From a virus: a DNA stretch of 30,912 nt. Under the pieces are notes generated by a model that searched no databases, was not told the origin of the DNA, and saw only the letters and a list, made by a program, of their open reading frames with translations. Of the stretch, positions 12,301-22,826 are shown in pieces. Every line of letters begins with the position of its first letter. The stretch's first letter is position 1. The position numbers and the translations under genes were made by a program. The DNA lies in the IMG/VR virus record IMGVR_UViG_3300025266_000028, positions 1-30,912 of that record. One strand, 5' to 3'.

Positions 12301-14049
12301 GATGTACTTGCAAAAACTAAAGGGTCCGCAGTTAAGATTCCTGTGGAAGAAGTTGCAGCAAAAGTTCTTCCAGAATCTGTTTCTCCCTTAACTCGTGCTG
12401 CAAATTTAAGGTTGCTTAATGAAGCAACTACGGAACTTCCTAGTTTTGTTACCATAAACAGAAGTGACGACGGAAAAATTATAACGGATCCGGAAGGCAT
12501 ACCTGTTGCAGCCATTGACGAAGCCGCCCTTCTTGGTGAGAAATCATTGTTTGACAATCCGGATTCTCCGTTTCAATTAGTTCAGATAGGGGAAGCGGGA
12601 ACACCTTTTGAGATAAGAATAAAACCAGACGCTCCCGTAAGCCCCAGGTCTTTGACGGTTGCAGAAAGTATACTTCTTGAAAGGTTAGCCTTACGTTTTC
12701 CAGATGGTGTTGATTCTAAAAGAATTCAAACTTTTAAGAACAAAAATAAAGAGGCCTTACAATTTCTTGAAAAGAACGGAAGCGTTGAGATTCCAAAAAT
12801 GCTGGAAGATGCGGATGGCCTTGCGGCTCAATTAGATGCGTTAAATACTCTTCGTAAGGACAAGACAAGACAACAATTAAGCGAGTTAATAAACAACGGA
12901 CAGTTAAACCTTGATGGTTTAACTATTGATGATTACCTCGGATACATTGGCAGTCGCCGCCGTCTTTTTTCAGAAGAAAATGCTCTATCTGAGGTTATAA
13001 AAGCAGACGCTGGATACGCTACAGAAGGTCTTTTTGACCGAGTTTTATCTTCTGGAAACAAATCTCCAACTTCGTCTCTTAATGAATTTCTGTCGGTTGT
13101 AAAAGGAAACAGGCCCGCTGAAAAAGGTTTGCAAGCTTCCATAATAGGCGAACTTTTTAGGCGCTCCAGTACATCAAATGAAGCTTTGGTACGGCAAACG
13201 GGAGATCTAGCTGCTTCGGCTTTTGACCCTGCTGAGTTTAGAAACTTAATGTCTAACCCTCGTGTTAGATCCTTACTTCAAGGAGCCTTTCCGGATAATC
13301 CTCAACTGTTAGATGGTTTAGATTCTGTTGCTAAAGTGGCTTTTGAGACTTCTGTCTTTACTAAAGGCGGTTCTAACATGTCCGGCTCGATAGATCCAAA
13401 CAGCGCGGTTAGCACAGAAGCTTGGAGTAACCTTGGAAGAATCCTTGGGTTGCAAGTTGCAGATCGAATTGGTTTTATAAATTCCCTTGTTGCCGCAGGT
13501 GCGGGTGGCAGAGCGTTTAGAGATGTGGGTAAACAGGTGACCGGCAACAAAATTAAAGACATTCTAATAAATGCCGCACTTGATCCCAAACTAGCCGTAA
13601 ACTTAGCAAAGGAAACTGCTGATTTAGCAGAACCTCTTTCCACAACTATAGCAAAAAGTTTGATTAACGCGGTTAATGTTCCTGGAACAGTAGCCCGTAG
13701 GCCCGGTGCCGCTACTCAGATCTTCCAGCGTGGAGAACAAGAACTTGATGAAGAAGAACGCATCGGGCCACAGTCCTCCTTGCAACGTCCTCTTAATGCC
13801 TTGGTTGCAGGTACTCCACAACAAGTTGCTTCTGCTATGCCTCCGCCACGGGCTCCTAATGCAAATTCCATTCTTGGTCAGGTCAATCCTGTTGGACCAC
13901 CGCCCATGGCTCAAGCTCCACAGGCAAATGTTACGCCGCAACAAATGGCGGACCTTGGACTTGACTTGTTCGCTGCCAAGAATGGGGGTTTCGTAGAGAA
14001 GTCTGGTATTATGTCTGTGAAACCCAAGGCAAGGCAGTTAGTCGGATAA
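9343..14049 (+). CDS. Giant internal virion/ejection protein (1568 residues)
   Basis: The largest gene in the window. Gly/Ala hydrophobic segments lie near residues 100-145 (AFAVGGVGDVVGLLSYVPGP), 220-240 and 295-345. Long coiled coils rich in Glu, Lys, Arg and Ala follow at about 410-500 and 730-860, and a Pro/Gln-rich tail (from about 1490) ends with GGFVEKSGIMS. Size, hydrophobic zippers and coiled coils fit podoviral internal proteins that form an ejection channel, but no catalytic domain was recognised. Its last 12 bases overlap the stop region of the oppositely oriented helicase gene. It is the final gene of the plus-strand virion block, and no clear terminator follows it. Confidence 0.8.
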   Translation: MPIKTPHTDITADHTGFDSSTGLHSYVFTNAQNGAQETTTSAYGPEDTTSPKGDRKPGLKSLMGSDLASSRGQGLASTFAPLFEKLRYKDQRGFFKRVVAPNIRRLPAFAVGGVGDVVGLLSYVPGPEELVAMGYEAATGDDPLEKIGLTSLEDRSKLDKKTRKAVEETYGSEATSRSFQKYIRSADRYAKDNWGFEPFESTIGTDMTPEARGTFEKLISTGLEFGAGGAAAVKGIVTSPKLLQDGAQWIFAKFAKESVKELGEDALKPENVRTLIDKASDAYSFRTKAGRRNLRGEVGFGLVAGAATESAMAGLENLDPNAADWVKATTAIGAGLLAPMAGKSLYTGLLQGPVVALSKRIVEPLFKPSTTAARYTQKEGMGKSAGDRENVASVARLLLESIANGRHVDQASGLAFTTPELARTESNILRANLEFKRERLDVETDLDVRKKLQREIEADESNIGALNQFANFQERILIAAGKDTNPAIATKFFQNEAKRLVKRREQFFNYIENNFKKSIDDLDFGGKPEGTLQELRLDYENAKKGAIPEFENTRRKLVMEGDPKGVEASELAWLDPQTSNKVNVRRTDLTSKMDEAFENAQKAAEDRVKFWEEGVQSYLADKGLSTLPDSEKALVGDLIRGTYNDAYREFRAFEKAAYRRIGGLNDKVTDNIVFPEGAVDPINGSDISGLAIDGWATSRLENLSRSERFNLKEVPAELAQLAGSRSVLAELNRSRSQATAEGRALATQSRIPDLERTRDDAIARRKEAEDNLDKQLEKENLEPPVESASLRTARAEVAKLEAELKQIPTGTTIEDPTVVRRMNAANQKLAGARAKVESLLETLPSGGPAKSSDAVRTLGKEVDSFSKEVQEAQSQIDKLTRDFLGATDDVVIEPTGRLTSRDADGELVSGGVSANDVKETISDVAESARREVATNGKTPKYRNLLQLRETLEQLLSPETFSTLDPSALAFGREASRIKNRVDDAQGDVLAKTKGSAVKIPVEEVAAKVLPESVSPLTRAANLRLLNEATTELPSFVTINRSDDGKIITDPEGIPVAAIDEAALLGEKSLFDNPDSPFQLVQIGEAGTPFEIRIKPDAPVSPRSLTVAESILLERLALRFPDGVDSKRIQTFKNKNKEALQFLEKNGSVEIPKMLEDADGLAAQLDALNTLRKDKTRQQLSELINNGQLNLDGLTIDDYLGYIGSRRRLFSEENALSEVIKADAGYATEGLFDRVLSSGNKSPTSSLNEFLSVVKGNRPAEKGLQASIIGELFRRSSTSNEALVRQTGDLAASAFDPAEFRNLMSNPRVRSLLQGAFPDNPQLLDGLDSVAKVAFETSVFTKGGSNMSGSIDPNSAVSTEAWSNLGRILGLQVADRIGFINSLVAAGAGGRAFRDVGKQVTGNKIKDILINAALDPKLAVNLAKETADLAEPLSTTIAKSLINAVNVPGTVARRPGAATQIFQRGEQELDEEERIGPQSSLQRPLNALVAGTPQQVASAMPPPRAPNANSILGQVNPVGPPPMAQAPQANVTPQQMADLGLDLFAAKNGGFVEKSGIMSVKPKARQLVG

Positions 14050-15480
14050 CCAGTCCCTAGCATCTTCGCCTAGTATCGTGTCAGCTATCTTGATCTTGTT
14101 CCGCAAGGCGGTGACAATCTTCTCGTCAATAGTTTTGGGTGAGATAAGATCAATGTAGGTGACCTTGTTTTCCTGTCCAATCCGGTGTGCGCGGTCCTCT
14201 GACTGAAGGCGAAGCTCCAGATCATAGCTGTTGCTGTAATAGACTACAGTATTTGCCGCTGTAAGAGTAAGACCGTAACCTCCTGTTTTAGGGTGCCCCA
14301 CAATGAAACGTAACTCAGATTGACGATCTTGGAAAGTTTCCACGATCTGTTGTCTATCCGAGTCAGGTGTTTCACCGTGGAGCGTTGCAACCGCTCCGAC
14401 GCCAAAGCGGTCGCGCAGGGCCTCGGCAATCGAACGGATATCCTGTGTCCAGGTTGCCCATATGATCGCCTTACCCTGTATCTCTTCACAAATGCTCATA
14501 AGTTCCAGTTGTCTGTTCGACTTCAAAGGGTGAACTACACCGTCGTCGTCCGTCAGACTACCAAGGCATATCTGTTGCAAACGCATGATCTGTGTCAATA
14601 CGTTTTGCGTCGTGGACAAGTCACCACTGTCCAGCCGTGCCAATGCTAAATTCTTCATTTGAACGTAGGCGTCGCGCTGTTCTGTGGTTAACTCAACCTC
14701 GCGTTTCATGTACACCTTGTCAGGCAAATCCAGACAATCTTCCTTGCGAACTCTAAAAGAGTGCCCGTTCAGAGCTTCGGTCAACTCGTCCAGACGTTGG
14801 AATCCGACGATGTTGTTGAAAGAATGTGCTCCCATTGTCCGCCGCTGTACAACAGCGTAGCGTCCTTGAAAAGCATAGTAGCTCTTGAAGCCAAGTATCT
14901 TGGGGCTTAGAAAATCCATCTGGCTGTACAAGTCCATTGGTGACTTAGTGACAGGGGATCCTGTAAGAATCCGCCGCATTACCGCACCACGGCCCACGTC
15001 ACAAATAGACTTAGTTCGTTTTGCCTGACGGTTCTTAATAGTTGTAGACTCGTCCACCGCCATAAAGACCTTGAATTTCTTTACAAAAAACTCTGCGACA
15101 TCTACGCCCTTCTTGGTGCTGAATGCCTCTATGTTCATAAGTAAGAACTTTAATTTGTCGTTCTCCTTATATAAGTCTACAAGTTCTTTACGTTTTGCCT
15201 TTGTCAGGTTTGGTTTCCACAAGACCGTGTCTGTCTGTATACGTTCAGGGAGGTGCGTCTCTATCTCACCTATCCAGTTAGCTATGACACCCTTGGGCGC
15301 GACAATAATAGCAAGATCTACTTTCTTCTTCTCGAACGAATGTGCTATTGTGTCTATACAAACTTTCGTTTTACCGGTGCCCATATCCATCAAAAGCGCG
15401 TAGTTCTCCTGCTCTGCGCTGCCTTCAAAGGCTTCCCGCTGGTGTTCATAAGGCGTGGTTTTAAAAACAAATTTATTCAT
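14038..15480 (-). CDS. SNF2-like superfamily 2 DNA helicase/translocase
   Basis: A 480-residue ATPase with a complete two-lobe SF2 core. Motif I is GTGKT (residues 34-38), Ia is VAPKGVIANW (60-69), II is DES at 143-145 (the usual box is DEAH/DEGH), III is LTGSPV (172-177), and V/VI is GGYGLTLTAAN (400-410) through SEDRAHRIGQ (427-436), the arginine-finger signature of SNF2 proteins. It is about the length of a bare phage core with no extra DNA-binding domain. Such enzymes translocate on duplex DNA and may remodel protein-DNA complexes or replication forks. It is the only minus-strand gene: it diverges from the replication operon and converges on the virion block. Its promoter is proposed at 15513-15541. 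Confidence 0.92.
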   Translation of the reverse strand: MNKFVFKTTPYEHQREAFEGSAEQENYALLMDMGTGKTKVCIDTIAHSFEKKKVDLAIIVAPKGVIANWIGEIETHLPERIQTDTVLWKPNLTKAKRKELVDLYKENDKLKFLLMNIEAFSTKKGVDVAEFFVKKFKVFMAVDESTTIKNRQAKRTKSICDVGRGAVMRRILTGSPVTKSPMDLYSQMDFLSPKILGFKSYYAFQGRYAVVQRRTMGAHSFNNIVGFQRLDELTEALNGHSFRVRKEDCLDLPDKVYMKREVELTTEQRDAYVQMKNLALARLDSGDLSTTQNVLTQIMRLQQICLGSLTDDDGVVHPLKSNRQLELMSICEEIQGKAIIWATWTQDIRSIAEALRDRFGVGAVATLHGETPDSDRQQIVETFQDRQSELRFIVGHPKTGGYGLTLTAANTVVYYSNSYDLELRLQSEDRAHRIGQENKVTYIDLISPKTIDEKIVTALRNKIKIADTILGEDARDWLSD

Positions 15481-15572: not shown

Positions 15573-16148
15573 ATGAACGATTTACTAGCAGAAATGGCCT
15601 CCGATTCTGAGGCTACCCCCGACAAGATAGATCAGTTACAAGACGGCAAGCTCGACATAGTGTCGCGTTTGGCAAACGAAGCTGCGGCATTAGAGCATAA
15701 ACTTGCCGCTGCCGAGAAGCTTATGAAGGAGACAAAGTCTGCTCTACATAAGATAACGGACGAGCAGCTACCCGAAGCCTTAGAAGTCATGGGCCTTCAG
15801 AAATTTACTTTAGTGGACGGCTCTGAGATTGCCGTCAAACCAATTTACGCCGCAAGCATTCCAAAAGATCGTAAAGACGAAGCCTTTCAATGGCTTCGGG
15901 ACCACGACTTTGGTGACCTTGTAAAGAACAATGTCACAGTTACATTTGGTCGTGGAGAAGATGAGACGGCTAAAGAGTTTGTAGGATTTTGCGGCGAACA
16001 AGGATTCGTTCCTAGCCAACTGGAGAAGGTCGAGCCTATGACCTTGAAGGCTTGGTTACGGGAACGGGTAGAAGCGGGGGACCCCGTCCCGCTTGATTTA
16101 TTCGGGGCTTTCATCTCACAACGAGCAACTATCAAAAGGAGCAAATAG
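15573..16148 (+). CDS. First gene of replication operon, conserved phage protein of unknown function
   Basis: A 191-residue protein. Residues 30-70 form a probable coiled coil (AAALEHKLAAAEKLMKETK), followed by a compact mixed domain (ALEVMGLQKFTLVDGSEIAVKP) and a C-terminus with PMTLKAWLRERVEAGDPVPL. I recall similar proteins in many tailed phages directly upstream of the SSB-like gene, but their function is unassigned. The context suggests a replication accessory or DNA-binding role (inference). Start ATG 15573 has CAGGAG 5-10 bases further upstream. The gap to the next gene is 3 bases, so the two are probably co-translated. Confidence 0.8.
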   Translation: MNDLLAEMASDSEATPDKIDQLQDGKLDIVSRLANEAAALEHKLAAAEKLMKETKSALHKITDEQLPEALEVMGLQKFTLVDGSEIAVKPIYAASIPKDRKDEAFQWLRDHDFGDLVKNNVTVTFGRGEDETAKEFVGFCGEQGFVPSQLEKVEPMTLKAWLRERVEAGDPVPLDLFGAFISQRATIKRSK

Positions 16149-16151
16149 ACA

Positions 16152-16931
16152 ATGGCAAAAGCAGTAGCTAAAAAACAATCCGCCGAAGTAATGGTTATGA
16201 ACGAAAACATGTTCGCTGAAGACGCCGGAATGGGTGTAAGCGACTTGGGTTCTGAAGATCTTGCGATACCGTTTATAAAGGTACTTCAAAAGATGTCCGA
16301 CGAACTGGATGACCTAGATAACGCTAAGGCTGGTGATATCTACAATACGGTTACAAAAGACATCGTTAAAGGTAAAGACGGTATCCGTTTAATTAACTGC
16401 GCGTACAACTTGCAGTACATTGAGTGGGAACCTCGTGGTACTGGTACAGGAGCACCTCACGCTATTTACGGCGCGGGGGACGAGATACCGGAGACCGAAC
16501 GAGGAGACGACAACAAGGACTATGTCGCCGGAGGTAGCGGTCGCTATCTCGAACGCACCGCCCAGCATTATGTTCTAGTTGTTGACGAAGACGGCGTTAC
16601 TCAGCAGGCACTACTGCCTATGAAGTCCACACAGTTTAAAAAGTCTAAACAGTGGAACAGCGCAATGCGGTCTTTAAAGATGAAAGACGGTAAAGGAAAT
16701 CTGTTTACTCCACCGCGTTTCTCACACATTTGGAAGCTGGAAACAGTTTCTGAGGAGAACAAGAACGGTTCTTGGCACGGATGGCAGATTAGTAAGGACG
16801 GCGTTGTCGAAGACGTAAACGTCTACCAAGAAGCCAAGTTGTTTGCCGAGTCCATCCAATCGGGTCAGGTGAATGTTAAACATGTCAGAGAAGAAGACAA
16901 AGATTCTTCTGACGAAGACGTTCCTTTTTAG
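16152..16931 (+). CDS. SSB-like protein with SSB-type acidic tip
   Basis: A 259-residue protein, probably single-stranded DNA binding. The main evidence is its C-terminus, an acidic run ending SSDEDVPF, which closely matches the protein-docking tip of bacterial SSB (E. coli ends DFDDDIPF). The body has many aromatic and basic residues on beta-type stretches (YNLQYIEWEPRGTGTGAP, KSTQFKKSKQWN, SWHGWQISKDG). No classical OB-fold signature was identified by eye, so the SSB call rests on tip and context. It lies between the 191-residue protein and the primase, and is separated from the primase by a strong GC hairpin that could set different expression levels. Confidence 0.65.
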   Translation: MAKAVAKKQSAEVMVMNENMFAEDAGMGVSDLGSEDLAIPFIKVLQKMSDELDDLDNAKAGDIYNTVTKDIVKGKDGIRLINCAYNLQYIEWEPRGTGTGAPHAIYGAGDEIPETERGDDNKDYVAGGSGRYLERTAQHYVLVVDEDGVTQQALLPMKSTQFKKSKQWNSAMRSLKMKDGKGNLFTPPRFSHIWKLETVSEENKNGSWHGWQISKDGVVEDVNVYQEAKLFAESIQSGQVNVKHVREEDKDSSDEDVPF

Positions 16932-16938
16932 GTCTGGT

Positions 16939-16962
16939 GGGGGAGGGCAACCTCCCCCTTTT
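16939..16962 (+). terminator. Hairpin with short T-run between SSB-like and primase genes (attenuator candidate)
   Basis: GGGGGAGG (16939-16946), loop GCAA, CCTCCCCC (16951-16958), then TTTT (16959-16962). The 8-bp GC-rich stem with a stable GNRA loop is followed by only four Ts, so partial termination or 3'-end protection of the SSB-like mRNA is more likely than a full stop. The primase ATG is at 16967. Confidence 0.75.
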
Positions 16963-16966
16963 CTAA

Positions 16967-18508
16967 ATGAAAAAAGAGATAGAAAAATTTGCGCGGATAT
17001 TTCGCGGTCTGAACCGAGCCTACGGGTCCTTGGACCTGACTACAAAGGACGCTCGTGGTAAGCAGAAGGGCAAGTATAAGTTTGTTCACGAACCACGGAC
17101 CATTGCCACATACGAGGCTCATCTAAAAGGAACCACTAGTATAGGTGTTGTTCCGATTAACGAAGACAACCTTTGCTGGTGGGGTGCCATTGATGTTGAC
17201 CAGTATCCGTTGGATCATTCTGCCATATTGAATAAACTACGCGAAGTTGAGATACCTCTCGTCGTCTGCCGAAGTAAATCGGGAGGAGCCCACCTATACC
17301 TGTTCCTTACAGAATTAGTCGAGGCTGAGAAGATACAAGTGAAGCTAAAAGAGATTGCGGCAGAGATCGGTTTCGGTGGCTGTGAAATATTTCCAAAGCA
17401 GATTAAACTTGTTCTCGAACGAGGAGACAACGGTAACTTCCTCAACCTCCCTTATTTTGACCACGAAGGTGGCCTCCGCTACGCCTTTAACAAGGACGGC
17501 AGTGCCGCAACACTAAAAGAATTTTTAGCTCTGGCAGAGAGTTCTGCAATAACAGAGCAGGCTCTTGATGATCTGATGTCCAAGACTGTGCCGGAAGTTG
17601 ATGACAAACTTAAAGATGGCCCACCTTGCTTGCAGGCTTTACTGCGGCAGGGCTTTCCAGAGGGCACTAGGAACAACGGACTATTTAACTTGGGCGTGTA
17701 TTTAAGGAAGGCTTTCCCCGATGAGTGGGAGACAAAGATACTTGAATACAACCAGAGCATCATGGAACCCGCACTTGATCTTAAAGAGGTCAACATTGTC
17801 GCGGACCAGATAAAAAAGAAGGACTATCAGTACAAGTGCTCGGATCAGCCTGTGTGCAATTTTTGCAACAAAGACCTCTGCCGTAGCCGGAAGCATGGCG
17901 TGGGGGGTGGGGCAAACACACCGACAGTAGCCAACTTGCGTAAGTATGACAGCGAACCGCCTTTGTGGTTTCTTGATGTCAACGGGTCGCCTGTCGAACT
18001 AGACACCGAGGGACTTCAGAAACAACCCCGCTTTCAAATACTTTGCATGGAGCAGATAAACTTCATGCCCCGCACCATTACTAGACAAGCTTGGGAAGCT
18101 CAGATGAACATGCTCCTGTCCCAGATGTTGGACACAGAGGGTGCTGTCATAACAACGTCCGAAGACACAAGCCTTCGCGGTCAGTTCTACGACATGCTTG
18201 AAGAGTTCTCTACTCATATGCAGTCTGCAATGGATAGAGAAGAAATACTTTTACGCCGCCCTTGGACCGATGAAGAAGAGGGACGAACATACTTTAGGCT
18301 TAAGGACTTTGAAGCTTTTCTTAAACGCAACAAGTTCTTTGAATACCGCTCGAACAAAATAGCGCAACGTCTTCGAGACATAGATGGAAAGTCCGAGCAG
18401 TTTCGGATTAAGGGCCGCACAGTGCGCTGTTGGTCAATTCCATCCTTTGCAAAGATAGAGGAAGAATTTGAGTCTCGCTTTGACGATGAGGAGGATATTC
18501 CGTTTTGA
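16967..18508 (+). CDS. TOTE-type archaeo-eukaryotic primase
   Basis: A 513-residue primase of the archaeo-eukaryotic (AEP) superfamily, TOTE-conflict subfamily as seen in phages. Catalytic acidic pair D76 and D78 lie in WWGAIDVDQY; the nucleotide-binding SGGAHLY motif has H109; a basic/aromatic motif follows at GDNGNFLNLPYF. A zinc-knuckle-like cluster C291, C297, C300, C305 comes next, then a probable winged-helix domain (about 435-490). No Walker A motif exists, so no helicase is fused. The C-terminus ends FDDEEDIPF, mimicking the SSB docking tip. No good Shine-Dalgarno lies near the ATG; the only purine run is inside the upstream hairpin, suggesting low expression. It would make primers for PolA. 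Confidence 0.88.
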   Translation: MKKEIEKFARIFRGLNRAYGSLDLTTKDARGKQKGKYKFVHEPRTIATYEAHLKGTTSIGVVPINEDNLCWWGAIDVDQYPLDHSAILNKLREVEIPLVVCRSKSGGAHLYLFLTELVEAEKIQVKLKEIAAEIGFGGCEIFPKQIKLVLERGDNGNFLNLPYFDHEGGLRYAFNKDGSAATLKEFLALAESSAITEQALDDLMSKTVPEVDDKLKDGPPCLQALLRQGFPEGTRNNGLFNLGVYLRKAFPDEWETKILEYNQSIMEPALDLKEVNIVADQIKKKDYQYKCSDQPVCNFCNKDLCRSRKHGVGGGANTPTVANLRKYDSEPPLWFLDVNGSPVELDTEGLQKQPRFQILCMEQINFMPRTITRQAWEAQMNMLLSQMLDTEGAVITTSEDTSLRGQFYDMLEEFSTHMQSAMDREEILLRRPWTDEEEGRTYFRLKDFEAFLKRNKFFEYRSNKIAQRLRDIDGKSEQFRIKGRTVRCWSIPSFAKIEEEFESRFDDEEDIPF

Positions 18509-18729
18509 GAGATGAACCTATCAACTGGAGCCAGCTTCTTCGCGACTTGCGGGTAGAGAAAGGTCTGACGCAAAGAGAGCTTGCCTACCAGTCTAAAATG
18601 CCCCAGCGGACAATTGCAGAGTATGAGAACGTCGAAGCCTCTCGACAGTTGTCCATATACAGGATTGAACAGATACTAGATTCTCTTGGTTATGAGATAG
18701 ATGTGTTTCTGAAGAAGAACAATGTTTAG
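18505..18729 (+). CDS. XRE/Cro-type HTH regulator
   Basis: A 74-residue protein with one Cro/C1-type helix-turn-helix: LLRDLRVEKGLTQRELAYQS forms helices 1-2, and KMPQRTIAEYENVEAS the recognition helix and turn. The start is TTG at 18505, overlapping the primase TGA; no in-frame ATG exists near the N-terminus. GAGGAGG (18488-18494) lies 10 bases upstream, inside the codons for the primase acidic tip. Its ATG-proximal end overlaps the helicase gene by 8 bases. It could repress the divergent promoter at 15.5 kb or act with the replication proteins; the target is unknown. Confidence 0.85.
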   Translation: MRDEPINWSQLLRDLRVEKGLTQRELAYQSKMPQRTIAEYENVEASRQLSIYRIEQILDSLGYEIDVFLKKNNV

Positions 18730-20245
18730 ATACTTTGGACCCCCAGGAACCGGAAAAACAACTACACTGTTAAATCAGGTGGATGCTCTTCTATCGGGCG
18801 GCATGTCCCCAAACGACATAGGCTACTTTGCTTTTACACGAAAAGCGGCCCACGAAGCACGGGACAGGGCGGTAGAACGTTTTAACCTAGACCCAGAGAA
18901 GGACTTCTCGTACTTCCGTACACTTCACAGTTTAGCCTTTCAAAGTCTTGGCATGTCTAGTGCCGACGTTCTTGGCGACAAGGGTCTTAAGAGTTTTAGT
19001 AAAGAGACGGGCGTTGATTTGTCGTCTAATGGAATGCAGCACATTGCCGATGACGGTTTTACGCTTCTTAAATCTAACAACCCCATCATGCAGGGGTTTG
19101 ACCTAGCTAGAAATACGTTACTTGGCGTTCGGCATGCCTACAATGTCATGGAACTAGATATTCCGTTTTATGAATTTGAGCACTTATATAACGAGTATGA
19201 ACGATTTAAAGTGTTGAATGGTCTTAAAGACTTTACCGACATGATGGTCGAACTAGCTGAAAAACCAAGCAGTCTCCCCGTCCTTAATACAATATTCTTG
19301 GACGAGGCACAGGACCTGACGCCATTGCAGTGGAAAGTGGCTCATGGTTTAGGAGAACGCTGCCAGAGGATGTTCGTAGCGGGGGACGATGATCAAGGTA
19401 TATACCGCTGGGCTGGTGCCGACATAAATCACTTTGTCTCTTTGGCAGGAGGATCAGAGGTTCTATCTCAATCCTACAGGATACCTCGAAGCGTTTACCG
19501 CATAGCCGATTCCGTGGTCAAAAGAATACAATTTAGGCAGAAGAAAACATGGTCTCCAAGACCTTCGGAAGGAAGTGTCCAACGAACATACGATGCAAAC
19601 ACGGTTTCGTTTGGCAACGAAGAATGGCTGGTTCTCGCGCAGGCTAATTACATGCTAGATGATCTAGCAAACCAACTTACTTCCAGCGGTCAGTACTTTG
19701 AGCGCAAAGGGTCACCGTCGTTAGCGAAGAACGTGCGAAGTGCCATTAGCTCATGGAACCACATGCAAGAAAGCCCCGGTCATGAAATATCACTGAAGGA
19801 AGCGGTCAACCTTTATGACCACATATCAAGTGGGTCGGGTAGTTTAAAACGCGGTGCTAAGAAAATGTTGGGCGGAGCGGATGAGAAAGACCTTTTTACG
19901 ATGGCTGTCTTACGGGATTACTTTGGGTTAGAAACACCAGACACAACCTGGGACGTTGCTTTAAACCGGATTGGTGACGAAGACAGGGCCTATGCCACTG
20001 CCCTGCTCAATCGCGGCGTCAATATATTTGAGAAGCCCAAGATCAAACTGTCCACGATCCACGGTGCAAAAGGTGGTGAAGCTGACAACGTTTTACTGTT
20101 CACGGACCTGTCCAGTAAAGCATTGAAAGAAATGGAGAAAAATCCCGACGACGCTCACCGAGTTTTATACGTTGGGATAACACGAACAAAGAAGAACCTT
20201 GTTCTAAAGATGCCAGAAGATTCACAAAGGGGTTGGGCCATATGA
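18722..20245 (+). CDS. UvrD/Rep-like superfamily 1 helicase
   Basis: A 507-residue SF1A-type 3'-5' DNA helicase with all core motifs. Motif I is GPPGTGKT (6-13), Ia FAFTRKAA, II DEAQD (194-198), III GDDDQGIYRW (221-230), IV QSYR, V STIHGAKGGEAD (444-455) and VI YVGITRTKKN (483-492). It is shorter than bacterial UvrD (about 720 residues), with reduced 1B/2B insertions, which is common in phages. It probably unwinds ahead of PolA or processes forks, because no DnaB-type helicase is present in the window. Its ATG overlaps the HTH gene by 8 bases and its stop overlaps the next ATG, so it is fully coupled within the operon. Confidence 0.93.
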   Translation: MFRYFGPPGTGKTTTLLNQVDALLSGGMSPNDIGYFAFTRKAAHEARDRAVERFNLDPEKDFSYFRTLHSLAFQSLGMSSADVLGDKGLKSFSKETGVDLSSNGMQHIADDGFTLLKSNNPIMQGFDLARNTLLGVRHAYNVMELDIPFYEFEHLYNEYERFKVLNGLKDFTDMMVELAEKPSSLPVLNTIFLDEAQDLTPLQWKVAHGLGERCQRMFVAGDDDQGIYRWAGADINHFVSLAGGSEVLSQSYRIPRSVYRIADSVVKRIQFRQKKTWSPRPSEGSVQRTYDANTVSFGNEEWLVLAQANYMLDDLANQLTSSGQYFERKGSPSLAKNVRSAISSWNHMQESPGHEISLKEAVNLYDHISSGSGSLKRGAKKMLGGADEKDLFTMAVLRDYFGLETPDTTWDVALNRIGDEDRAYATALLNRGVNIFEKPKIKLSTIHGAKGGEADNVLLFTDLSSKALKEMEKNPDDAHRVLYVGITRTKKNLVLKMPEDSQRGWAI

Positions 20246-20580: not shown

Positions 20581-20914
20581 GGAGGTATTGGAAACAGCTT
20601 TGGATCTAGTTGGGGGTGACCGTGCCGTTGACTACGGTTCAATGTGGGAGAACCACCATAACATTGCCCAGTTGTGGAACGGATATTTGCACGATAAGAA
20701 CGGCGACTTGTCCGCCGAAGATGCCGCCAACATGATGGAGCTAATGAAAATAGCACGGCGTAAGTCGGGGGCTCTAAAGAAAGACAACTACATTGATGGC
20801 GCGGGATATGCGGCGGTAGCTTTCGAATGTGCCGAGAAAGAACGCGACAACCAGCTTTCGCTTAAACTTCTGGCAGAAAAGTATAGTAAGAAGAACAATG
20901 AAAAAGAATCTTAA
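20567..20914 (+). CDS. DUF6378-like phage protein (possible nucleotide-metabolism helper)
   Basis: A 115-residue all-helical protein with a DUF6378-like pattern: DRAVDYGSMWENHHNIAQLW, AANMMELMKIARRKSG and DNYIDGAGYAAVAFE. The spaced Glu, Asp, His and Lys residues resemble all-alpha NTP pyrophosphohydrolase folds (MazG-like), but the classic MazG acidic motif is not clearly complete, so catalysis is uncertain. It overlaps the upstream DUF7768-like gene by 14 bases and the PolA start by 17 bases, so it is translationally coupled to the replication enzymes. Confidence 0.75.
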   Translation: MAASKEVLETALDLVGGDRAVDYGSMWENHHNIAQLWNGYLHDKNGDLSAEDAANMMELMKIARRKSGALKKDNYIDGAGYAAVAFECAEKERDNQLSLKLLAEKYSKKNNEKES

Positions 20915-22826
20915 AAAACCAACGTGGGGCGTCAAGACTGAATGGGTTCCTATTGAGCAGTTACCTCCGACACCGAAAGGTATCACGGAAATTGCAATAG
21001 ACTTGGAGACCAAAGACCCACGGCTCAAGTCCCATGGCCCAGGGTGGGCTACCGGACATGGAGATGTAGTCGGGTTTGCTGTTGCATACGAAGGTTTTAA
21101 CGCCTATCTGCCCATTGCCCACGAAGGTGGTGGCAACCTTGATCGGGGCATTGTAATGCGCTGGTTCCAGAAGGAGATAGCGGACCATCCTTCCGATAAG
21201 ATTTTCTACAATGCCGCGTATGATGTGGGCTGGATGAAACGCCTTGGCATTGAGCTCAAAGGAAAAATGATCGACGCAATGCTGGCCGCACCTTTGTTAA
21301 ACGAGAACAGGTTTAGTTATTCACTCAACGCAGTGTCCTACGACTACATGGGACTAATGAAGTCAGAAGCCGCTTTACGAGAAGCCGCACAAGAGTTTGG
21401 CGTTGATCCAAAGGGAGAACTTTACAAACTACCTGCCTGTTTTGTTGGAGAGTATGCCGAGGCCGATGCCCAGCTTACCCTTGATCTTTGGCAGGTTTTT
21501 AAAATGGAGCTAACCAAACAGGACTTGTGGCAGGTCTTTGACATGGAGACTTCTATACTGCCGCTTTGTATAGAAATGACTTGGAAGGGTGTTCGAGTAG
21601 ACCTCGACTCTGCCGAGAGACTTAAACAAGACCTTCTTAAGATTGTAAAAGGAATACAGTCGGACGTTAAGAAGGAGACAGGTTTTGCTGTAGAGTTGTG
21701 GGCGGCGGCAAGCATTGCCAAAGTCTTTGACCATTTGAAGATACCGTATGGTCGAACCAAGACAGGCTTGCCCAGTTTTACCAAGAACTTCTTAGCCCAG
21801 CATGAACACCCTATTGCCCAGAAGATTGCAGAAGCAAGAGAGTACGACAAGATGGGCAACACCTTCCTGTCCAGTATATTCCGGTATGCCGAGAAGGACC
21901 GCATCCACGGTCACATTAATCAGTTACGCTCCGAAGGCGGCGGAACCGTGTCCGGTCGTATCTCTATGTCAAACCCGAACCTCCAACAGATACCAGCGCG
22001 GAACCCAGAAATGGCCCGCAAAATACGGGGGCTGTTCTTGCCAGAAGAAGGGGAGAAGTGGGCGTCAATGGATTTTGACCAGCAAGAGCCGCGCATCCTT
22101 GTTCACTTTGCAAGCCTAACGAACAAAGGACTGACGGGATCCGATGACTTTGTAAAGGCATACAGAGAAGATCCCAAGACAGACTTTCACCAGATGGTAG
22201 CCGACATTGCTAATATTCCTCGCAAACAAGCCAAGACCATAAACCTGGGTATCATGTATGGCATGGGACAGACAAAGCTTGCAGAGCAGTTGGATGTGTC
22301 AACGGACCAAGCTAAACGGCTCATGCGTCAATACCACGACGATGTTCCCTTTGTTAAAGAACTCATGGACGCCGTACAGCGCAGAGTGTCGCACCGAGAC
22401 AAGGGCGGGTTTGTCAGATCATTGCTAGGCCGCAAGTGTAGGTTTGATCTGTGGGAACCCAACCTGTTTGTTTCTGCACGGGCCTTGCCAAAGGAAGAAG
22501 CTCACATTGAATATGGCGACAACATCAAACGTGCATATACATATAAGGCATTGAACAGGTTAATCCAGTCGAGCGCGGCAGATCAAACAAAGGCAGCAAT
22601 GGCCGCTGTTTACGAACAAAGAAACAAGATACCGCTCGTACAGATACACGATGAACTGGCTTTTTCCGTAACGGAAGTGGAGGAGGCCCGTGACCTCTGC
22701 AAGATAATGGAATCTGCTTACAAACTAGAAGTACCAAGCCCTAGCGACATCTCGCTAGGTGATAACTGGGGGAACTTGACTAACGTGGACAAATCCGATA
22801 GTGTCCCAGAAGTAAAGGATGATTAA
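20898..22826 (+). CDS. polA: Family A DNA polymerase with 3'-5' exonuclease
   Basis: A 642-residue replicative PolA without the 5'-3' exonuclease domain. Proofreading motifs: ExoI DLET (D35, E37), ExoII NAAYD (N105, D109), ExoIII Y186 and D190. Polymerase motifs: A with D392 in MDFDQQEPR, B with R442, K446, Y454 in RKQAKTINLGIMYG, and C with HDE (584-586). The residue equivalent to E. coli Phe762 is Leu450. ATG 20898 was chosen because upstream codons in this frame encode a non-conserved basic leader lying inside the DUF6378-like gene. Together with the primase and SSB-like protein it forms the phage replisome. Confidence 0.95.
   Translation: MKKNLKKPTWGVKTEWVPIEQLPPTPKGITEIAIDLETKDPRLKSHGPGWATGHGDVVGFAVAYEGFNAYLPIAHEGGGNLDRGIVMRWFQKEIADHPSDKIFYNAAYDVGWMKRLGIELKGKMIDAMLAAPLLNENRFSYSLNAVSYDYMGLMKSEAALREAAQEFGVDPKGELYKLPACFVGEYAEADAQLTLDLWQVFKMELTKQDLWQVFDMETSILPLCIEMTWKGVRVDLDSAERLKQDLLKIVKGIQSDVKKETGFAVELWAAASIAKVFDHLKIPYGRTKTGLPSFTKNFLAQHEHPIAQKIAEAREYDKMGNTFLSSIFRYAEKDRIHGHINQLRSEGGGTVSGRISMSNPNLQQIPARNPEMARKIRGLFLPEEGEKWASMDFDQQEPRILVHFASLTNKGLTGSDDFVKAYREDPKTDFHQMVADIANIPRKQAKTINLGIMYGMGQTKLAEQLDVSTDQAKRLMRQYHDDVPFVKELMDAVQRRVSHRDKGGFVRSLLGRKCRFDLWEPNLFVSARALPKEEAHIEYGDNIKRAYTYKALNRLIQSSAADQTKAAMAAVYEQRNKIPLVQIHDELAFSVTEVEEARDLCKIMESAYKLEVPSPSDISLGDNWGNLTNVDKSDSVPEVKDD

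Follow-up and report, generated by a model that had tools for sequence, protein, structure and literature searches.

Why do two neighboring phage genes encode proteins that end in the same kind of acidic tip? The question is raised by a 30.9-kb virus record from a marine phage, the whole of which was analyzed here and is referred to as the window. Side by side on its plus strand lie a gene for a 259-amino-acid protein (16152..16931) with the C-terminal tip SSDEDVPF (codons at 16905..16928) and a gene for a 513-amino-acid primase (16967..18508) with the tail FDDEEDIPF, the last eight codons of which (DDEEDIPF) occupy 18482..18505. Both open reading frames and both tails were confirmed. An earlier note had read the pair as an SSB-like protein and a primase, had suggested that the primase borrows the SSB interaction network or competes for the same partner, and had regarded such recruitment as not commonly noted for archaeo-eukaryotic primases.

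Identities of the two tip-bearing proteins

The designation SSB-like in the earlier note had to be replaced, because profile searching identified the 16152 protein as a Pam3 gp34-like protein (Pam3_Gp34, PF23977; E = 4.8e-64, 216.8 bits against a cutoff of 27) and not as a recognized SSB. It also matched phrog_2402 (E = 7.4e-67), a family whose annotation is "function unknown." The gp34 family defined by PF23977 and phrog_2402 has relatives in ~500 phage records, many of them from Pseudomonas aeruginosa phages. In one relative, MW202510, the annotation misses the gp34 gene at 13704-14597 and two antisense coding sequences are drawn there instead. Searches for the canonical SSB domain (PF00436) gave no hit in the gp34-like protein, in the whole window, or in the 16 related records searched. 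Against the PDB, the gp34-like protein gave zero sequence matches and no structural match at an E value of ≤0.001; the weaker fold listings contained SsbA, Rim1, the Klebsiella pneumoniae SSB, and RPA amid unrelated proteins, and the viral fold library returned mostly unnamed proteins together with one named SSB. With the sequence searches empty and the links to SSB/OB folds weak, we rejected the idea that gp34 is a proven SSB, and because of the weakness of those fold links, SSB-like is best taken as a plausible, unproven label. We treat gp34 as a putative single-stranded-DNA (ssDNA)-associated replication protein. Its AlphaFold model is mostly beta, with a pLDDT of 85, and residues 249 to 258 fall below 50.

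The downstream protein is an AEP primase of the Prim-Pol type. It matches the AEP-TOTE family PF22548 (E = 1.8e-13, with a score above the family cutoff), the primase family phrog_21866 (E = 9.3e-103), and the CAPP Prim-Pol structures 7nqd (E = 2.3e-13, profile search) and 7nqe (E = 5e-11, fold search). It has the Prim-Pol fold with the catalytic D-x-D and S-x-H region, and residues D76, D78, K104, S105, and H109 were invariant across 66 aligned sequences. A PriCT_1 C-terminal domain scored 15.0 bits, beneath the cutoff of 21.1. The catalytic domain is thus held in common with the CAPP (7nqd/7nqe) and TOTE AEPs, but unlike them the phage primase sits in a replication operon and carries a C-terminal docking tip. 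In the predicted structure, the tail of the primase (residues 501 to 513) has pLDDT values of ~51 to 56, and the tails of both gp34 and the primase are predicted to be poorly ordered.

The two genes belong to a replication segment whose other products include candidate receptors for the tips. Upstream are an SNF2-like SF2 helicase (phrog_62, from profile matches; 14038..15480, minus strand) and the partner gene of gp34, which encodes a gp33-like DUF7307 protein (PF23984, E = 1.9e-30; 15573..16148, plus strand); relatives of the latter are annotated "DNA ends protecting" or "host-nuclease inhibitor." Downstream of the primase are a small helix-turn-helix ORF (18505-18729), the TTG start of which overlaps the primase stop codon (18505-18508), a UvrD/Rep-like helicase (phrog_1967, from profile matches; 18722..20245, plus strand), ORFs with DUF7768 and DUF6378, and an A-family DNA polymerase (PF00476, E = 1.3e-64; 20829..22826, plus strand). 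The two helicases, the gp33-like protein, and, by analogy with T7, the polymerase are all candidate receptors.

Protein-level selection maintains both tips

Among the 39 nonoverlapping ORFs picked in the window, only gp34 and the primase end in PF. When five relatives were added, 6 of 425 picked ORFs were PF-ended, and five of the six were gp34 or primase. The remaining one is a 62-amino-acid ORF of DSL-LC04 (15264-15449) that ends AEFEPAPF; this ORF aside, no third tip-bearing replication protein was found in the window and the five relatives.

We then considered a close group of 80 related viral contigs, fetched with the primase and spanning primase identities of 76 to 100%. All closed copies of both proteins in these contigs still end in PF, which in most cases follows acidic residues. 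Among distinct DNA tails, PF was invariant in 43/43 for gp34 and 45/45 for the primase, while positions −8 and −9 varied; the invariant Pro was encoded by four different codons and the invariant Phe by both of its codons. Since the Pro and Phe codons vary, selection acts on the tip as protein, and the tips of gp34 and the primase are conserved by protein-level selection. For the same reason, the overlap of the primase stop codon with the TTG that opens the following ORF fails to explain the tip, and a DNA-level constraint of this kind was rejected. A chance origin of the paired tips was rejected on the strength of the rarity of PF-ended ORFs and the invariance of PF in the close group. A clamp-binding motif includes a glutamine, which is absent from the tips, and this candidate was dropped.

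The two tips usually change together between lineages

To see what becomes of the tips at greater distances, we surveyed 390 loci. The LC04, 023Pt, HTVC027P, Kokobel2, and Barton lineages have lost the acidic tail ending in I/V/L-P-F that the close group carries. The window group has acidic-[ILVTM]-PF on almost every copy of both proteins. The LC04 group retains PF in 54/63 gp34 and 72/73 primase distinct tails in a nonacidic form, positions −8 to −3 of the primase tip averaging 0.5 acidic and 2.1 basic residues. The Pro-Phe pair is gone from both proteins in the HTVC027P group, where 34/34 gp34 tails and 44/45 primase tails end in IV (for example, QDIV on gp34 and ENIV on the primase). A lone terminal F is found on most copies of both proteins in the MW202510 group (for example, HNAF with GEIF); exceptions exist, and three gp34 copies end in RR. 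In the window, LC04, HTVC027P, and MW202510 themselves, the matching pair consists of gp34 and the primase, the only other look-alike being the 62-amino-acid LC04 ORF.

Elsewhere the correspondence takes other forms. All 40 of the gp34 tails of the 023Pt group end in PY, mostly as STPY, and the primase usually has PY six residues from its end, followed by a terminal F (TPYQxENF, as in TPYQIENF), so that the two match only loosely, through an internal near-match on the primase. Providencia phage Kokobel2 has HSEF on gp34 and KAEF on the primase, and Acinetobacter phage Barton has SDEY and KSEF. The two genes are nonadjacent in these phages, lying 3 to 4 kb apart, and because the pairing persists over this distance, recent gene adjacency or copying was rejected as its sole cause. 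Two lineages carry the tip on gp34 only: Nanhaivirus R5C and Pan1 have EEIPF or EVPF on gp34 and GEA on the primase, and HTVC023P has SVPF and KFRT. The R5C primase, used as a scan query, matched R5C itself and nothing else. In further phages, Pbunavirus KPP22 among them, a terminal F likewise closes the gp34 homolog (AEQF, AKGF, AEEF, ADNF, AEGF, and KPVF), with no tip-bearing partner found or sought.

The correspondence was examined by re-pairing gp34 and primase partners at random, with scores uncorrected for phylogeny. For 29 pairs below 60% primase identity, this shuffle, without phylogenetic correction, gave P = 0.0096 when the last two residues were scored and P = 0.019 when three were scored; the corresponding values for the MW202510 group alone were 0.018 and 0.042, again uncorrected for phylogeny. 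Scoring the last residue by itself gave no significant result (P = 0.19 for pairs under the 60% primase identity cut). Thus, the tips of gp34 and the primase usually change together in a lineage-matched fashion, with modest shuffle P values.

A proposed single receptor pocket for both tips

Comparison of the tails shows lineage-matched change on both proteins, and change in the same direction on two proteins suggests one shared, probably phage-made socket. We consider it somewhat probable that gp34 and the AEP primase share a co-drifting docking tip for one receptor pocket, most likely phage encoded. The tip would be a disordered tail whose last residue is hydrophobic and in most cases aromatic, and the tips of gp34 and the primase would bind the pocket in turn. 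As the pocket drifted between phage lineages, both tips would usually be retuned together. In this way the primase and the putative ssDNA-associated gp34 could take over from one another at the fork, on the principle of the T7 gp2.5 and gp4 tails, and priming would be coupled to ssDNA coated with gp34. We infer that the pocket is the same for both tips, that it is of phage origin, and that it has this hand-over role; a single drifting pocket able to take either tip is the most economical interpretation, and its drift makes a phage origin probable. More tentatively, the tips may constitute a private, lineage-specific docking code, rewritten together and independent of the canonical SSB tip, that serves as an interchangeable plug for one replisome hub.

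The distribution of genes narrows the choice of receptor. The genes for gp33, gp34, and the SNF2-like helicase occur in 10/10 genomes compared, including that of Pbunavirus KPP22, which is without the AEP primase and PolA and in which gp34 still ends AEEF. Because these three proteins are found in every genome compared that keeps the gp34 tail, gp33, the SNF2-like helicase, and the groove of gp34 itself are the leading receptor candidates.

The last of these candidates amounts to a special case of the shared-pocket explanation, in which the primase tip would be a copy of the gp34 tail that fits into the groove where gp34 binds DNA, thereby recruiting the primase to gp34-coated ssDNA. The acidic tail of a T7-type SSB occupies a neighbor's groove and modulates DNA binding (PMC5686142), and human PrimPol, likewise an AEP primase, is recruited through C-terminal acidic/hydrophobic motifs that bind RPA70N, residues D519 and F522 being essential (PMC5457501). 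Retention of the terminal F by KPP22 gp34, without the primase and PolA, is as expected if the pocket is on gp34 itself. However, the links of gp34 to OB/SSB folds are weak and its ssDNA binding is putative, and Nanhaivirus and HTVC023P have gp34 without a tip on the primase. We regard this specific form as possible but rather doubtful.

It is unlikely, in our estimation, that the resemblance reflects convergence on acidic, hydrophobic-ended tails, with each tip serving a separate partner or masking a nucleic-acid site of its own protein. Acidic tails are common among ssDNA-binding proteins (PMC5686142), and the match is missing in two lineages and loose in one; against this, the two tips change jointly in type, beyond acidity, with a shuffle P value of ~0.01.

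A more T7-like arrangement would give the pocket to the module's A-family DNA polymerase. This polymerase is present in 9/9 AEP-bearing genomes compared, and in T7 the tails of gp4 bind basic patches on gp5 (PMC12593628, PMC8472574), while the tail of gp2.5 has been implicated in interactions with both gp5 and gp4 (PMC5686142). Yet KPP22, from which the polymerase is absent, retains a terminal-F tail on gp34, and the primase tip of LC04 is basic rather than acidic, making the polymerase an improbable site for the pocket.

Docking on the host SSB network is not supported in general

Equally improbable is the proposal with which the earlier note began, namely, that both proteins mimic the tip of host SSB and dock on its partners (PriA, RecO, DnaG, chi, and others). 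Both tails of the window group fit the acidic-x-PF consensus of the bacterial SSB C terminus (DDDIPF) closely, and PF00436 was not found in the window or the 16 relatives searched; both results favor such mimicry. In contrast to bacterial SSB, however, neither phage protein has the PF00436 domain, and relatives part from the bacterial tip while their own two tips still match, LC04 pairs having lost its acidity and HTVC027P pairs the entire IPF, both members ending in IV. Moreover, two phages place the canonical tip on a separate small phage SSB (phrog_18154) encoded directly downstream of PolA: that of Kokobel2 (2551-2907) ends DFDDDIPF and that of Barton (30725-31048) ends LDDDLPF. In these phages, therefore, the SSB-type tip is one signal and the gp34/primase tip another. 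This separation, taken with the loss of acidity in LC04 and of IPF in HTVC027P, counts against docking on partners of the host SSB in general, although such docking may still apply within the window group; as a general explanation, the host SSB network is not supported by the tails compared here. What stands of the original proposal is that the paired tips are conserved and suggest a shared partner.

Relation to T7 and PrimPol

At the T7 replisome, acidic C-terminal tails are used by the primase-helicase gp4 as well as by the SSB gp2.5 (PMC8472574, PMC12593628, PMC5686142), and processivity falls when the gp4 tail is lost (PMC8472574, PMC12593628). T7 therefore provides a precedent in kind: a single phage has such tails on both its primase and its ssDNA protein, and the system includes an A-family polymerase. 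The phage studied here likewise has matching tails, one on a primase and one on a putative ssDNA protein, and its module also contains an A-family polymerase. Unlike T7, it has an AEP primase to which no helicase is fused, and its first protein is gp34-like, not gp2.5; neither gp2.5 nor gp4 homology appeared among the matches listed in PDB sequence and fold searches. A further difference is that the tip can be nonacidic and that, from one lineage to another, it usually changes on the two proteins together. PrimPol, for its part, binds the SSB protein itself, and sharing of the motif by that SSB is not described in the available portion of PMC5457501. T7-style tail sharing is thus known; what is unusual here is the coordinated rewriting of the tips.

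Having a tip in common with the primase connects the gp34 family, to which no function has been assigned, with replication and offers a direct way toward its partner. The drift of the matched tips amounts to a natural experiment: the hub should be a phage protein that recognizes the two tips of its own lineage but not the tips of a different one. If the shared-pocket reading is true, the T7 principle of tail sharing would extend to AEP primases, and if the docking code is true, every phage lineage would carry an interchangeable plug of its own that fits one replisome hub.
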